The notes under the pieces: model-generated
What the model was told of the DNA's origin: nothing
Database searches by the model: none
Seen by the model: only the letters and a program-made list of their open reading frames with translations
Translations under genes and position numbers: made by a program
Source of the DNA: Elusimicrobia bacterium RIFOXYA2_FULL_47_53
Lineage (GTDB): Bacteria > Elusimicrobiota > Endomicrobiia > Endomicrobiales > XYA2-FULL-47-53
DNA: 64,000 nucleotides
Reading direction: 5' to 3'
Assembly: GCA_001800315.1 (NCBI GenBank)
Contig: MGVE01000001.1
Span: 62,001-126,000 of the forward strand
Part shown: in pieces, positions 12,135-31,949 of the stretch
How the letters are laid out: each line of letters begins with the position of its first letter
Numbering within the stretch: the first letter of the stretch is position 1

Positions 12135-12771
12135 TTTCTTTTCTGACTTCCGTTAAACGGTTGTAGTAAGTTGTGTTGGAGCCGATATTTTTTGTAACGA
12201 TACAGCCCGTGCCTATAATTGAATTGTTGCCAATCGTGGTGTACTGCTTAACGCTTGCCCCGTTTCCTATATGAGCAAAATTCCCAATTTTATCGCCGCC
12301 GCTAAGTATCGCACCCGGAGCTATGTGTGCAAAATCACCTATAACGCAGTCATGCTCAACAATCGCTCCTGTGTTAATTATACAGTTATTTCCGATAACA
12401 GAGCCGGCGTTAACTATTGCTCCGGGGGCTATGAAATTACCACAGCCCATGGAAGCATGTTTTGAAACGATGGAGTTTTTGCTGATGATATTAGGGAAAG
12501 CAAATCCTATCTCAGAGGCCTTTCTGTAAAGCTTTTGCCTTAAAGATGAGTCCCCGACACTGCCAACAGATATAAAGCAGTTTTTGACTCCTTTTTTGTA
12601 TATAGCGGCGAGGTCGGCGTCGGTTCCTATGACAGGAATGCTTAAAACCTTTTCGCCGATTTTATCTTTTGTATCAATTATGCCAGCGATTCTAAACTTC
12701 TTTCCGCGGCTAATGGCGTCAATAATTACTTTGCAGTGCCCTCCGGCGCCAATCAAGATAATATTTTTCAT
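12127..12771 (-). CDS. legH: PglD/NeuD-type acetyltransferase (LegH)
   Basis: The 214-residue protein combines an N-terminal Rossmann-like nucleotide-sugar-binding domain (LIGAGGHCKV at residue 5) with a left-handed beta-helix from about residue 88 to 200. The catalytic histidine is probably in EHDCVIGDFAHIAPG near residue 138. This is the layout of PglD/NeuD, which acetylate the C4 amine of a 4-amino-4,6-dideoxy nucleotide sugar. Between ptmE and legI it is expected to acetylate the LegC product. It overlaps ptmE by four bases and legI by eight. Confidence 0.88.
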   Translation of the reverse strand: MKNIILIGAGGHCKVIIDAISRGKKFRIAGIIDTKDKIGEKVLSIPVIGTDADLAAIYKKGVKNCFISVGSVGDSSLRQKLYRKASEIGFAFPNIISKNSIVSKHASMGCGNFIAPGAIVNAGSVIGNNCIINTGAIVEHDCVIGDFAHIAPGAILSGGDKIGNFAHIGNGASVKQYTTIGNNSIIGTGCIVTKNIGSNTTYYNRLTEVRKENE

Positions 12772-13829
12772 TGAACACCGTACCTTTTGAGCATATCTTT
12801 AAGTTCTTCAAACTGCCCCATGTCCAGCCAGGATTTTTCAGATATCGGATAAATGCCCACGGTTTCTCCGTTTGCCATAAGTTTATTGATTAGATCAGTC
12901 ATATGGTAAGGTTTGTCTTTCGGAATAAGTTTAATAACCTCAGGCTCCAGAATATACATGCCCGTATTTACCAGAAAATCGTATTCCGGTTTCTCGTCAA
13001 TTTTTGAAAGCATTCCGTTTGGGCCTACGCCGCAGACACCGTAGGGTATCGTGTAATGCTTCATGGACCCAACAAGCGTTATTTTGCTTTTAGATTTTTT
13101 GTGATATTCAAGTATATCGGCGAGGTCTGCCTCTATGAGTATGTCGCAGTTGCTGACGCAAAAAGTCTTTTTTATGCTCCCCTTCAAAAGGTGGAGGCTG
13201 CCGGCCGTGCCCAACGGCTTATGTTCTTCTATATAATGAATATTATACGGCAGGTTGACATCGTGGAAATATGCCTTAATTATGCTGGATTTATAATTCA
13301 CGGATAGATAGAAGTCTTTGCTTCCGTAATCGGAAAACTTTTCCATGATCCGCTCAATAATAGGTTTGTCGCCAATCAGCATCAGCGGTTTTGGCAGAAC
13401 CTTTGTTAAAGGCGAAAGCCTTGTTCCCTCGCCTCCGGCCATAAGAACAACCGGCAGGTTCAGCTTTTTATTCAATTTCGTTCTTTCCTGAAATAAATCC
13501 ACCCACCAGATAGCCGAGACTATCTTGCTATCGCTGTTAATTATGGGAATGCACTCAATGGATTTTCTGACCATCAGGTCGCGGGCTTCGGATTTAGCAT
13601 ATCCCTCAGACAAAGTTATCGGCTTGGTGCGCATCGCGCTGGAAATAGGTTTGCCGAGTTTCCCGCCTTTAAGTATCCACCTTCTGATATCGCCGTCTGT
13701 CACGGCTCCGAGCAGAGTGTTATCCGAGTCAACGACAAAAAGTATCTTCTCACCGGCTGAATCTATCTGCTTGAGCGCGTGCCTGATTGACTGCTTGGGA
13801 GAAATCAGTATTTTATTAAGTTTGTCCAT
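12768..13829 (-). CDS. ptmE: CBS-domain nucleotidyltransferase (PtmE, GDP-GlcNAc route)
   Basis: The 353-residue protein carries a pair of CBS domains in residues 1-118, then a sugar-phosphate nucleotidyltransferase domain from about 124 with MAGGEGTRLSPLTKVLPKP and NCDILIEADL near 225. PtmE of Campylobacter has this same fusion and makes GDP-GlcNAc for legionaminate synthesis, so its presence suggests that the GDP-linked route is used here. CBS domains may sense adenine nucleotides. It is followed by legH with a four-base overlap; the 49 bases separating it from legC upstream contain a tandem repeat. The exact sugar phosphate and nucleotide are inferred from the Campylobacter enzyme. Confidence 0.88.
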   Translation of the reverse strand: MDKLNKILISPKQSIRHALKQIDSAGEKILFVVDSDNTLLGAVTDGDIRRWILKGGKLGKPISSAMRTKPITLSEGYAKSEARDLMVRKSIECIPIINSDSKIVSAIWWVDLFQERTKLNKKLNLPVVLMAGGEGTRLSPLTKVLPKPLMLIGDKPIIERIMEKFSDYGSKDFYLSVNYKSSIIKAYFHDVNLPYNIHYIEEHKPLGTAGSLHLLKGSIKKTFCVSNCDILIEADLADILEYHKKSKSKITLVGSMKHYTIPYGVCGVGPNGMLSKIDEKPEYDFLVNTGMYILEPEVIKLIPKDKPYHMTDLINKLMANGETVGIYPISEKSWLDMGQFEELKDMLKRYGVQ

Positions 13830-13852
13830 AGGTACTGCCTCACTTTGTTGGG

Positions 13853-13896
13853 CTGATTACGGTCGTTATTTAACCTGATTACAGTGATTTTAAAAT
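13853..13896. repeat. Two-copy imperfect 22-bp tandem repeat overlapping legC 3' end
   Basis: Two units beginning CTGATTAC start at 13853 and 13875, a 22-base period: CTGATTACGGTCGTTATT and CTGATTACAGTGATTTTA. The 18 bases at 13875-13892 are identical to 29860-29877 next to the GxxExxY cassette. The second unit reaches into legC and provides that gene's last codons (Lys-Ser-Leu) and stop. The rest fills most of the legC-ptmE gap. Confidence 0.8.
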
Positions 13897-14985
13897 CGTC
13901 TTTAGCGTTTTACAGATATATTTAATATCGCTTAATGAATTCTTTGTTGACCCAGGGAAACAGAGGCTGTGATTGTATATATGCTCGGCTGTTTTAATGG
14001 TTCCCCTCTTTGCGTTTTTGTAAGGCGGAAACCAGGGTATTGGCATAAACAGGCGCCTTGTTGGTATGCCGCGCTCTTTTAACGCTTCCTGAAGTTTTGA
14101 TATGTCAATAGAATTTTCAAAGCTCATGCAAGTCAGCCAGTAAGAGCTTACGGCGTCCTTATAGCATTCCTGAAAAGATATTTTACTTATTCCTGAAAGA
14201 TCATTTCTGTAGATTTTATTAAAATCGCGCTTCAGTTTTAAAAAGCCGTTTAATCGGCTTATCTGGGCAAGCCCCAGCGAAGCTTCTATATTGGTCATCC
14301 TGTAATTAAATCCGACTTCAGGGTGAAAATAGCCCTTTGACTCGTCGCGCGCCTGATTGACAAGAAATTTCAAATGCGCCAGTGTGCCGGCATCTCTGCC
14401 TACTATCATACCGCCGCCGCCGGTAGTCATAATTTTGTTGCCGTTAAAACTGTAACAGCCCAGGTCGCCAAAAGTGCCTGTAAGCTTCCCGCAGTAGGCC
14501 GCGCCAAGGCTTTCGGTCGCGTCTTCTATAACTTTCAATTTATGCTTTTTGGCTAATTTTAAAATAGAGCCCATATCGCAGGGGTTGCCATAAAGGTGTA
14601 CCGGAACTATGGCTTTGGTTTTTTTAGTAATTAGTTTCTCAATTTCTTTCGGGTCTATATTCCATGTTTTTGAATCAATATCGGCAAATACCGGCCTTGC
14701 GCCAAGCTGTATTATCGGGTTTACGGTAGCTATAAAAGTAATAGCAGGGACAATAACTTCGTCGCCTCTGCCGATACCAAGCTCATAAAGCGATACATGA
14801 AGCGCGGCCGTGCCGCTTTGAGTAGAAACCGCCTTTTTAGCGGATATGTACCGCGCGAATTTCTCTTCAAACTCGCCGACAAACGGCCCCGCGGTAGAAA
14901 CAAAACCAGCAGTTATCGCCTTGTAAAGATACTGCTTCTCAAGTTTACCGACATTGGGGGCGTCAAGAAATATCTGACTTTTCAT
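13879..14985 (-). CDS. legC: LegC-type PLP aminotransferase (DegT/DnrJ/EryC1 family)
   Basis: The 368-residue fold-type I aminotransferase has the family blocks VSTQSGTAALHVSL near residue 55, DATESLGAAYCGK near 157 and the PLP-lysine segment FNGNKIMTTGGGG near 181. In legionaminate synthesis LegC transfers an amino group from glutamate to C4 of the 4-keto-6-deoxy sugar made by LegB. LegB itself lies 16 kb upstream at 30.4-31.4 kb. The ATG overlaps the preceding membrane-protein stop (ATGA). The stop codon and final three codons lie in a repeat shared with the GxxExxY cassette, so the native C-terminus may have been remodelled by repeat insertion. Confidence 0.9.
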   Translation of the reverse strand: MKSQIFLDAPNVGKLEKQYLYKAITAGFVSTAGPFVGEFEEKFARYISAKKAVSTQSGTAALHVSLYELGIGRGDEVIVPAITFIATVNPIIQLGARPVFADIDSKTWNIDPKEIEKLITKKTKAIVPVHLYGNPCDMGSILKLAKKHKLKVIEDATESLGAAYCGKLTGTFGDLGCYSFNGNKIMTTGGGGMIVGRDAGTLAHLKFLVNQARDESKGYFHPEVGFNYRMTNIEASLGLAQISRLNGFLKLKRDFNKIYRNDLSGISKISFQECYKDAVSSYWLTCMSFENSIDISKLQEALKERGIPTRRLFMPIPWFPPYKNAKRGTIKTAEHIYNHSLCFPGSTKNSLSDIKYICKTLKTILKSL

Positions 14986-29069: not shown

Positions 29070-29843
29070 TTATTTCCAGATTTGCCATGGGGCAGAGCCG
29101 CTCTGCCACAACTTTTCCAGCTCAATTTTATCGCGGAGCGTGTCCATGGGTTTCCAGAACCCGTGGTGCTTGTAAGCAACAAGCTGGTTATCTTTTCCCA
29201 GGTTTTCAAGCGGCTCTCTTTCCCAGGTAGTTGAATCCTCTTTAATGTAATCAAATATCTTAGGTTCAAGCACAAAGAATCCGCCGTTCACCCAGGTCCC
29301 GTCGCCGACCGGTTTTTCAAAAAACGACCTTACCGCATTTTCTTTCTGTATCTCAAGCGCGCCGAACCTGCCTGTGGGCTGAACAGCTGTTATGGTAGCG
29401 GCCTTGCCGTGTGTTTTGTGAAATTTAAGTAGTTCATTAATATTGACATTTCCGACACCGTCGCCGTATGTGAGCATAAAGGGTTCATTATTCACATATC
29501 TCTGTATTTTCTTTATTCTTCCGCCCGTCATGGTGCTTTGGCCGGTATCAATAAGAGTTATTTTCCATGGATCGGAAAATGTATTATGTATCTCGGTTTT
29601 ATTGTTGGCGATATCTATTGTAATATCGCTCGTGTGCATTAAATAGTGCGAAAAATATTCCTTTAACAAATAACCTTTGTACCCGAGACAGATAATAAAC
29701 TCGTTAAAACCATAATGTGAATATGTTTTCATTATGTGCCATAAGATCGGTTTTCCCCCAATCTCTATCATGGGTTTTGGCACTATATTTGTTTCTTCGC
29801 TGATCCTCGTTCCCATCCCGCCGGCAAGAATAACAACTTTCAT
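29070..29843 (-). CDS. rfbF: Glucose-1-phosphate cytidylyltransferase
   Basis: The 257-residue protein starts VVILAGGMGTRISEET and has PKPMIEIGGKPILWHIM near residue 23, LTYGDGVGNVNI near 123 and VNGGFFVLEP near 181, diagnostic for RfbF. It makes CDP-glucose from CTP and glucose-1-phosphate and so commits carbon to CDP-deoxysugars. The length fits the family. The gene ahead of it is the GxxExxY cassette, 20 bases away, whose repeat lies directly at its 5' side; a TCCGGAGG ribosome site lies just before the ATG, next to the repeat unit. Confidence 0.95.
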   Translation of the reverse strand: MKVVILAGGMGTRISEETNIVPKPMIEIGGKPILWHIMKTYSHYGFNEFIICLGYKGYLLKEYFSHYLMHTSDITIDIANNKTEIHNTFSDPWKITLIDTGQSTMTGGRIKKIQRYVNNEPFMLTYGDGVGNVNINELLKFHKTHGKAATITAVQPTGRFGALEIQKENAVRSFFEKPVGDGTWVNGGFFVLEPKIFDYIKEDSTTWEREPLENLGKDNQLVAYKHHGFWKPMDTLRDKIELEKLWQSGSAPWQIWK

Positions 29844-29859
29844 GATTTCCTCCGGAAAT

Positions 29860-29903
29860 CTGATTACAGTGATTTTATGTCCTGATTGCGGTGATTATTT
29901 AAA
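29860..29903. repeat. Two-copy 22-bp tandem repeat, left flank of GxxExxY cassette
   Basis: Units start at 29860 (CTGATTACAGTGATTTTA) and 29882 (CTGATTGCGGTGATTATT), again 22 bases apart. The first unit is identical over 18 bases to 13875-13892 and contains the stop codon of the GxxExxY gene in the same register in which the other copy ends legC. Confidence 0.8.
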
Positions 29904-30265
29904 ATTCTTCTGAGCTGACAACTTTTGGCGCCAAAATTAACTAACAAACCCGTATTCAGTTTTGCAGCTTTTAAATATGATGCAAGCTGATTTTCAAAAA
30001 GTCCTGGGATATTGCCTTCCAAAGATTTCAGCTCCAGAATAACTTTGCCCTCAACCAACAAGTCAACACGGAGTTTACCAACTTCCATATTGCTGTATGT
30101 GACATTATAAGTTTTCTCTCGTTCGTAACCGATGATGCTGTTATCCAATTCAATTATGAGCGCATTTTGATAAATCTTCTCAATAAACCCCGGACCTAAA
30201 TCCCTATGCACCTTGAAACAACAACCGATTATTCTCTCGGTCAGTTCATCATTGATCTCGTGCAT
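29864..30265 (-). CDS. GxxExxY protein (PD-(D/E)XK-nuclease-like fold)
   Basis: I start this 133-residue protein at ATG 30265 (beginning MHEINDELTERI), because the family is about 120-130 residues; a longer reading from 30334 crosses the flanking repeat. It has the name motif in LGPGFIEKIYQNAL near residue 24 and a nuclease-like VDLLV then VILELKSL near residue 68-82 (Asp ... Glu-x-Lys). The biochemical role of this family is not established. It has no evident link to glycan synthesis and is bounded by inverted copies of a 22-base-period repeat, which suggests that it was inserted as a small mobile or selfish cassette between legB and rfbF. Confidence 0.82.
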   Translation of the reverse strand: MHEINDELTERIIGCCFKVHRDLGPGFIEKIYQNALIIELDNSIIGYEREKTYNVTYSNMEVGKLRVDLLVEGKVILELKSLEGNIPGLFENQLASYLKAAKLNTGLLVNFGAKSCQLRRILNNHRNQDIKSL

Positions 30266-30296
30266 CCCGCCCCCAAACCACAGCCTGCCCTTACCC

Positions 30297-30334
30297 AAAA
30301 TCACCGTAATCCGATCATAAATAGCGGTAATCAA
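30297..30334. repeat. Inverted copy of the 22-bp-type repeat, right flank of GxxExxY cassette
   Basis: Here the motif appears in reverse orientation: AAAATCACCGTAATC at about 30297-30311 and AGCGGTAATCA at about 30323-30333, 21 bases apart. On the minus strand these read GATTACC and GATTACGGTGATTTT, matching the left-flank units at 29860-29903 head to head. Confidence 0.72.
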
Positions 30335-30356
30335 GGCATCTCATCTGCGAGATGCC
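30335..30356 (-). other. Perfect 8-bp-stem hairpin just after legB
   Basis: GGCATCTC (30335-30342), loop ATCTGC, GAGATGCC (30349-30356) form a perfect stem that begins at the last base of the legB stop codon. No T-run follows on the minus strand, so a classical intrinsic terminator is unlikely. It could stabilise the legB mRNA 3' end or mark the edge of the inserted cassette. Confidence 0.7.
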
Positions 30357-31357
30357 TAAATGTTGTAGATATGAGATTTGTACAACTTCAGATTTTCTTT
30401 GTCAGAAAACCAACCAATAGTTTCCGCCAAGCCTTTATCAAGCGTAGTTTCAGGAATCCATTTTGTTGTCTTTTTTAGTTTGGTGTTATCGCCAAGCAGT
30501 CTTTCAACTTCGCTTTTGCCGGGGCGCTCTCTTTTTCCGTCAAACGCAATTTTGGCGTCTGATCCGCAAAGCTTGATTATCTTTTTGGCGAGGCCGCCGA
30601 CGCTTATTTCTCTTTTGGTTGATATGTTAATTACTTCGCCTTCGGTTTTGTTTGATTCAAGAATCTTAACGAAACCCGCGGCGGTATCCTTAACATAAAC
30701 CAGGTCTCTTGTAGGGTGCAAAGAGCCTAGTTTAATTTGTTTGGCTCCCGAGAGAGCCTGGCTGATAATTGTTGGTATTACTGCGCGAGCCGACTGACGG
30801 GGGCCATAAGTGTTAAAGGGGCGCACTATAGTAACGGGAAGATTAAAACTTCTATAAAAGCTGAACGCAATCTGGTCCGCGCCTATTTTAGTGGCAGAAT
30901 ACGGTGACTGGCCCTGCAAGGGATGTTCTTCATCAATAGGAACATACTTTGCCGTTCCGTAAACCTCACTCGTAGAAGTGACAAGCAGTTTTTTTACTCC
31001 GAAATCGCGGCAGGCGTTAAGAATATTCAGGGTACCTTTTACATTTGTGTCCACATAGCTGTCCGGCGAATGGTAAGAGAAAGGGATAGCTATCAGGGCG
31101 GCAAGGTGAAGCACGGCGTCACAGCCATTTACCGCGTTTCTCACTCCGTTAGGGTCGCGGACATCGCCGGTAAAAATTTCTAATTTGGAAAGCGTTTTCT
31201 CAGGTATGCTGTCCAGCCAGCCGTAGCTGTTGAATGAGTTGTAGTATACAAAAGCTCTAACCTTGTAGCCTTTTTCAACGAGATATTCGGTAAGATGGCT
31301 GCCAATGAAGCCGTCCGCTCCCGTCACAAGAACCTTTTTGAATTTTTTAGCCATCAT
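30356..31357 (-). CDS. legB: NAD-dependent 4,6-dehydratase (LegB)
   Basis: The 333-residue extended SDR has TGADGFIGSHLTEYL near residue 12, RAFVYYNSFNSYGWLD near 34, TSTSEVYGT near 127 and YSATKIGAD near 153. The FVYYNSFNS block is typical of LegB, the GDP-GlcNAc 4,6-dehydratase that begins legionaminate synthesis. I start at ATG 31357 (or the adjacent ATG 31354), after GAGAGAGG; a longer reading from 31462 would overlap the regulator gene and lacks support. LegB is the only Leg gene outside the block at 7.5-15 kb, separated from legC by the CDP-sugar/second-NeuB module. Confidence 0.9.
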   Translation of the reverse strand: MMAKKFKKVLVTGADGFIGSHLTEYLVEKGYKVRAFVYYNSFNSYGWLDSIPEKTLSKLEIFTGDVRDPNGVRNAVNGCDAVLHLAALIAIPFSYHSPDSYVDTNVKGTLNILNACRDFGVKKLLVTSTSEVYGTAKYVPIDEEHPLQGQSPYSATKIGADQIAFSFYRSFNLPVTIVRPFNTYGPRQSARAVIPTIISQALSGAKQIKLGSLHPTRDLVYVKDTAAGFVKILESNKTEGEVINISTKREISVGGLAKKIIKLCGSDAKIAFDGKRERPGKSEVERLLGDNTKLKKTTKWIPETTLDKGLAETIGWFSDKENLKLYKSHIYNI

Positions 31358-31388
31358 TGCCTCTCTCTCATATAAGTAAGTCCTGCCG

Positions 31389-31407
31389 TTCCTGCCCGAA
31401 ACAGGAA
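31389..31407 (-). other. Small hairpin in the regulator-legB gap
   Basis: TTCCTG (31389-31394), loop of seven bases, CAGGAA (31402-31407) sits in the 61-base gap between the winged-helix regulator and legB. No T-tract follows. It may affect readthrough into legB. Confidence 0.5.
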
Positions 31408-31418
31408 TCCGGTTAAAT

Positions 31419-31949
31419 TTAATAAAACAATTTTGATGCTGAAAGATACTCCAGAACATCAATTTTTTTGCTTACCATATTGTTTCCAGATGAAATAACT
31501 TCTATTACAGCGGGGTTGGATGAGCTGTCATTACCGGTATTTCGGGAGTACTTTATAGTGCTGTTGTTTAAGCTCCTGATGGCCAATTCAACTATATCAG
31601 TAATCTCACTGTTGCCGCTAATAATAAACTCAACTTCAGAATTCATATTTTCTTTTAGAATGAGTTCCTGCAGTTTTTGTTTCATTATTTTGAAATTATC
31701 AACAGCCTTAAGAGCAAAATTGTAAGACTTGCTTGCCTTCTCGGAAAAACCTTTCGGGGTTAAGATGTATTGTATCTTTTTACGGTTTAATAGTTTTGAT
31801 TTGACATAACCGCGCGTAATGAGCCGTTTGATAATAAGGTTAGTCAGGCCAAGCGAAATACCGGCTTTCCCGGCAAGCGAGCGCTGGTCGTGAATCTGAT
31901 TATTGGATATTTCTCTGATGATAGCGAATTCTTTCTCTGATATTTGCAT
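31419..31949 (-). CDS. Winged helix-turn-helix regulator (MarR-like)
   Basis: The 176-residue protein has an N-terminal winged helix: a recognition region SLAGKAGISLGLTNLIIKRL near residue 24-43 and a beta-wing with KKIQYILTPKGF near 58. A helical segment follows (residues 75-105) and then a compact C-terminal region (residues 105-176) with VEFIISGNSEITDIVELAI that looks like a small ligand or oligomerisation domain. Related wHTH genes often sit at the head of exopolysaccharide clusters. It lies three bases after the FkbM gene and 61 bases before legB, so it may control the leg/CDP-sugar genes downstream. Confidence 0.75.
   Translation of the reverse strand: MQISEKEFAIIREISNNQIHDQRSLAGKAGISLGLTNLIIKRLITRGYVKSKLLNRKKIQYILTPKGFSEKASKSYNFALKAVDNFKIMKQKLQELILKENMNSEVEFIISGNSEITDIVELAIRSLNNSTIKYSRNTGNDSSSNPAVIEVISSGNNMVSKKIDVLEYLSASKLFY

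Follow-up and report, generated by a model that had tools for sequence, protein, structure and literature searches.

A GxxExxY gene between iterated inverted arms at the legB-rfbF junction: a candidate minimal mobile element

Introduction

In the genome of the Elusimicrobia bacterium RIFOXYA2_FULL_47_53, the sugar-pathway genes legB and rfbF are separated by a small gene of the GxxExxY family, which is annotated in many phyla with no role stated. A preliminary description of this DNA regarded the gene and the repeats on its two sides as a mobile insertion unit. Is the cassette indeed a mobile element, and if so, is it moved by the protein it encodes? We analysed the locus in its window, i.e. 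the whole stretch of 64,000 nucleotides, and compared it with GxxExxY loci of other genomes.

The cassette between legB and rfbF

The GxxExxY gene (29864-30265, minus strand) encodes 133 aa from an ATG at 30265-30263; the open frame reaches further, to a TTG at 30334. It has the same direction as the host genes on both sides, legB upstream (30356-31462, minus strand; LegB-type NAD-dependent 4,6-dehydratase) and rfbF downstream (29070-29843, minus strand; glucose-1-phosphate cytidylyltransferase). A two-unit inverted repeat of about 40 nt is present on both sides of the gene. The left arm (29861-29900, plus strand) contains two GATTAC/GC-N-GTGATT units 22 bp apart, GATTACAGTGATT at 29862-29874 and GATTGCGGTGATT at 29884-29896 (both plus strand), and also codes for the final residues and the stop codon of the GxxExxY frame (..IKSL*). 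The right arm (30296-30333, minus strand) consists of two inverted units 21 bp apart, GATTACGGTGATT at 30299-30311 and GATTACCGCTATT at 30320-30332 (both minus strand). These positions agree with those claimed in the preliminary description.

Aligned with the reverse-complemented right arm, the left arm reached a score of 18.5 (shuffle mean 7.2), which was attained by none of 5000 shuffles. A generic repeat finder applied to the cassette region reported no inverted pair, because the match between the arms requires a gap. With two mismatches allowed, the window contains 11 matches to the single 13-mer unit, which is no over-representation relative to the 9.7 expected; the significance therefore rests on the paired, inverted arrangement.

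Hairpins adjoin both arms. The left one (GATTTCC-TCC-GGAAATC, 29844-29860) is a fold immediately upstream of the rfbF start codon, and GGAGG on its minus strand is likely the ribosome-binding site of rfbF. The right one (AGGCATCTC-ATCTGC-GAGATGCCT, 30334-30357) has a 9-bp stem (z -4.5) and overlaps the legB stop codon. From left hairpin to right hairpin the cassette thus comprises about 514 bp (29844-30357), its outer limits being inferred from these hairpins and the gene ends (rfbF start 29841-29843, legB stop 30356-30358). Hence the compact unit between legB and rfbF that had been described as about 475 bases long is retained, slightly enlarged by the hairpins.

An inverse duplication of host flank at the junction was considered and dropped, because hairpins like those of the window adjoin the arms in several copies of the genomes G002, G111 and G113. 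Arm-tip hairpins were rejected as a general feature (stem of at least 7 in 6 of 156 tips vs 8 of 624 controls) and are kept as a feature only of the GATTAC-type relatives of the window copy. Several GATTAC-type cassettes (L015, L020, L033, L363-L365) exhibit conserved-stem hairpins, GACATCCT..AGGATGTC and GGTATAAT..ATTATACC, next to their arms; the latter contains a TATAAT promoter-like box.

According to a genome search, the GxxExxY gene is present in a single copy, and exact arm units are confined to the cassette arms and a lone two-unit arm (13852-13892, plus strand) with neither gene nor inverted partner. The lone arm aligns to both cassette arms (score 19.0, reached by 0 of 5000 shuffles) and is located where two genes of the minus strand (12768-13829 and 13879-14985) adjoin. 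The genome contains just this one cassette and one lone arm. The former resembles a single insertion that is possibly old, and the latter, at a distance of 16 kb, a leftover. The lone arm also provides the C-terminal KSL and the stop codon of the aminotransferase-like gene at 13879-14985, the end of which appears as if an inserted arm had been turned into coding sequence.

The GxxExxY protein is a predicted Cas4/RecB-fold nuclease

The window protein scores above the curated cut-offs of TIGR04256 (125 bits, cut-off 35) and PF13366 (PDDEXK_3; 120 bits, cut-off 22) and is by this measure a member of the GxxExxY family, bearing out the identity assigned to the gene earlier. It contains the GxxExxY motif and the catalytic D..ExK residues; among 44 sequences, the window protein included, none of the residues E30, Y33, D69, E79, K81, Q94, Y98 and F112 varies. 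When its AlphaFold2 model (mean pLDDT 91.5) was compared with the PDB by Foldseek, the top match was Cas4 SSO0001 (4ic1, E 4e-4, TM 0.58), followed by Cas4 Pcal_0546, LHK exonuclease, AdnAB and MGME1. Holliday-junction resolvases and the I-Bth0305I domain were matched weakly. As modelled, the protein is a PD-(D/E)XK nuclease of the Cas4/RecB fold.

Searched by sequence, the PDB contained no credible relative, and no match was obtained to the anti-phage defence profiles of PADLOC or the phage profiles of PHROGs; the cassette had no match in Rfam. A phage origin was rejected, as there are no GxxExxY relatives in viral contigs, phage records or PHROGs.

Inverted arms accompany GxxExxY genes in many phyla

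The preliminary description had made its proposal depend on the presence of repeats around other GxxExxY genes. We collected 127 GxxExxY loci of many phyla from relatives, a genome-wide scan and Hymenobacter; several of the genomes compared are metagenome-assembled. For each locus the 150-bp left flank was aligned with the reverse-complemented right flank and the score compared with that of 100 dinucleotide shuffles. All shuffles were beaten by 96 of the 127 loci (76%; mean score 21.7), the remaining 31 failing in a test whose outcome depends on flank length and scoring, vs 5 of 112 neighbour ORFs of the same loci used as control (4%; mean score 10.1). The motifs of the arms are lineage-specific (GATTACACAGAT, CGCAGAGGACGCAG, ACACGGATTACACGGAT, CACAGAGTTCACAGAG and others), and the lags revealed by autocorrelation are 8-10 and 22 bp for diverse loci, compared with 10, 12 and 24 bp for Hymenobacter.

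Mobility in Hymenobacter

Cassette matches were detected in 70 of 101 Hymenobacter species (1-7 each). At one junction, the host genes of cassette-free species overlap or have a few bases between them; in other species the cassette sits exactly between the stop and the start codon. Filled and empty versions exist at a second junction, too. At site A (L281, L294, L296), the same junction is occupied in some species by another inverted repeat (AACGTCATG... / ...CATGACGTT) and therefore seems open to several repeat families.

A tree of 52 proteins requires 14 changes of site label, 7 being the least possible, and for one site alone a minimum of 6 changes falls on well-supported branches. Between cassettes at different sites, arm similarity amounts to 0.51 at a protein identity of 75% or more and to 0.22 at 55-65%; the values for cassettes at the same site are 0.56 and 0.27, respectively. 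Arm similarity is correlated with protein identity (Mantel r 0.44, reached in 0 of 1000 permutations). The arms track the protein and not the place, and the travelling unit is therefore the gene plus its arms.

Gene-less and deleted derivatives

The pattern CCCGCAGAGGNCGCAG gave 8-22 matches per genome in eight Hymenobacter genomes, its reversed control 0-1. These matches include 27 gene-less inward-facing pairs, 32-85 bp apart; the remainder are 8 outward-facing pairs, 6 gene-bearing pairs and singles. Folding of the doublets is much stronger than that of shuffled sequences (z -6 to -19), and large ORFs contain fewer of them than of random positions (11 of 30 vs 246 of 300). Outward-facing pairs with tips about 20 bp apart recur across Hymenobacter genomes (L344, L348, L349, L360, L362), and in four of these five loci the spacer is GTCGTTGTTACG or its complement. 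Joints formed end to end are one possible explanation of such pairs, a second replicating form another.

Deleted derivatives of the cassette are present in G002, a genome of the window's own order. The terminal pattern had 69 matches (control 0) in G210, a Chlamydiae genome in which many copies are internally deleted to about 246 bp with only C-terminal codons remaining. The tips in G210 are flanked by 8-bp direct repeats, exact in 5 of 26 cases and at 7 or more of 8 positions in 10 of 26, compared to 0-1 direct repeats for all other offsets and widths. Examination of 79 loci outside G210 revealed no target duplication, for which reason it was rejected as a general feature of the cassettes; at the window copy none can be read. 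The earlier reading as a mobile insertion unit is supported via the relatives by filled and empty junctions, movement between sites and deleted copies.

What moves the cassette?

We consider the window cassette to be one copy of a compact mobile element whose nuclease acts with its own inverted arms in a REPIN-RAYT-like manner, albeit with a different enzyme, and assign this reading a probability of roughly 0.55. The GxxExxY nuclease itself is inferred to be the mover. It would recognise its cognate arms, in the form of either paired sites on DNA or a hairpin folded from a single strand, and might process the arm ends, whereby the cassette and its gene-less derivatives would spread into intergenic gaps as REPINs do with their RAYT. 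Insertion between a stop and a start codon, stop codons or a ribosome-binding site being provided by the arms, may render the element nearly harmless to the host operon. Since the arms and the protein are short, this model is directly testable.

The main rival explanation, which we judge less likely, makes GxxExxY mere cargo: the cassette would be an inverted-repeat element of the MITE or REPIN type that is non-autonomous and moved in trans by another enzyme, for instance a Y1/RAYT or DDE transposase. It draws on genes encoding a four-helix bundle (TIGR02436), which sit in the same kind of inverted-arm cassette: 22 of 28 such loci pass the inverted-flank test. As these genes share the architecture and have no nuclease fold, the cassette is not necessarily moved by the protein it encodes. 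Their arms show an autocorrelation of 0.50 at lag 7 (control 0.27), and a clear 7-bp period is visible in L096-L129, including the own-genome copies L126-L129. The window genome contains five Y1 transposase matches, and the terminal inverted repeats and 8-bp duplications in G210 are typical of DDE transposition, so that an ordinary DDE element could have captured the cassette there. Against a passenger role, the arms track the GxxExxY clade, the catalytic residues are invariant, and the Hymenobacter genomes G283 and G296 carry doublets and cassettes with no detectable Y1 transposase. ISL3, which we looked for among the possible transposases of G210, is absent from that genome and was rejected as the mover; another transposase may be present there.

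Movement by the nuclease also has to be weighed against an explanation at the RNA level, which appears improbable. Here the arms would pair in the transcript and RNase III would cut, the cassette being comparable to a 23S rRNA intervening sequence within an operon mRNA and DNA mobility being secondary. In such intervening sequences a small ORF (S23p/four-helix bundle) lies between complementary ends, and RNase III carries out the excision (PMC4990558). The cassettes share this anatomy, the doublets fold strongly, and some paired changes are found in L277/L289 and L181/L185. However, when related loci were compared in 16 pairs, of which 14 had a scorable core, 41 arm columns had changed on a single arm vs 8 on both; a conserved arm-arm pairing as RNA stem is thus unsupported, and the RNA-level role is disfavoured because related arms changed mostly one-sidedly. 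Moreover, the window arms match imperfectly, with about 395 nt between them.

Very improbable, finally, are arms that serve as autoregulation sites or as regulatory or terminator repeats of the ordinary kind, belonging to an immobile gene with vertical inheritance: two units 21-22 bp apart would face the same side of the DNA, as for a dimer site, and hairpins adjoin both window arms, but the relatives exhibit presence and absence, site switching, dispersed gene-less pairs and deleted copies.

Comparison with known systems

The layout of the cassette looks like that of a widespread, apparently undescribed minimal mobile element. Neither mobility of GxxExxY nor its association with arms was found described in the open-access literature searched; as the search covered open-access papers, the novelty is provisional.

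With the Cas4/RecB-type and homing PD-(D/E)XK nucleases the window protein shares fold and catalytic residues. It is smaller (133 aa), however, and is associated with neither an intron nor an intein and with no CRISPR context. Cas4 has a four-cysteine Fe-S cluster; the window protein has three cysteines, and no CRISPR genes were found in its neighbourhood. MITEs and IS elements resemble the cassette in their terminal inverted repeats and, for the Chlamydiae lineage, in internally deleted copies and 8-bp target duplications. The cassette differs from them in having no DDE transposase, GxxExxY being its sole ORF, and in the lack of target duplications in the 79 other loci.

Like the 23S rRNA intervening sequences, the cassette is about 430-500 bp long, has one small ORF and complementary inverted ends and is sporadically distributed. 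Unlike these, it lies between the protein genes legB and rfbF instead of within rRNA and codes for a nuclease instead of a four-helix bundle, and there is no indication of its arm pairing being conserved as an RNA stem.

The similarities to REPIN-RAYT (PMC3116915) concern the organisation. These comprise a gene between inverted short palindrome-forming repeats, gene-less inverted doublets dispersed in extragenic space (here in eight Hymenobacter genomes, the window genome having one lone arm), lone arms as remnants and a match between arm type and protein lineage. The differences concern, first, the enzyme, which is a Cas4/RecB-like PD-(D/E)XK protein in the cassette and an HUH Y1 transposase in the case of RAYT. 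Several GxxExxY cassettes per genome are common, which differs from REPIN-RAYT, too. REPs possess a GTAG foot beside the palindrome; neither GTAG nor CTAC occurs in either window arm, and the cassette arms consist of iterated units of 9-12 or 22 bp without such a foot. On account of the different enzyme and the lack of the foot, we do not class the cassette as a member of this system.

More tentatively than for the window copy, and at somewhat less than even odds, GxxExxY proteins in general may be the mobility enzymes of undescribed minimal selfish elements across many phyla. By acting on iterated inverted arms of its own, a Cas4/RecB-fold nuclease would disperse cassettes with the gene as well as hairpin doublets without it, in convergence with REPIN-RAYT, and the four-helix-bundle cassettes, including the rRNA intervening sequences, would form a sister class. 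If GxxExxY is the engine of such an element, a large family of unknown function would gain one, and there would be an explanation for a class of inverted repeats, short and periodic, that occurs in environmental genomes. A PD-(D/E)XK counterpart would then be added to REPIN-RAYT, and the rRNA intervening sequences would fall into a wider class.
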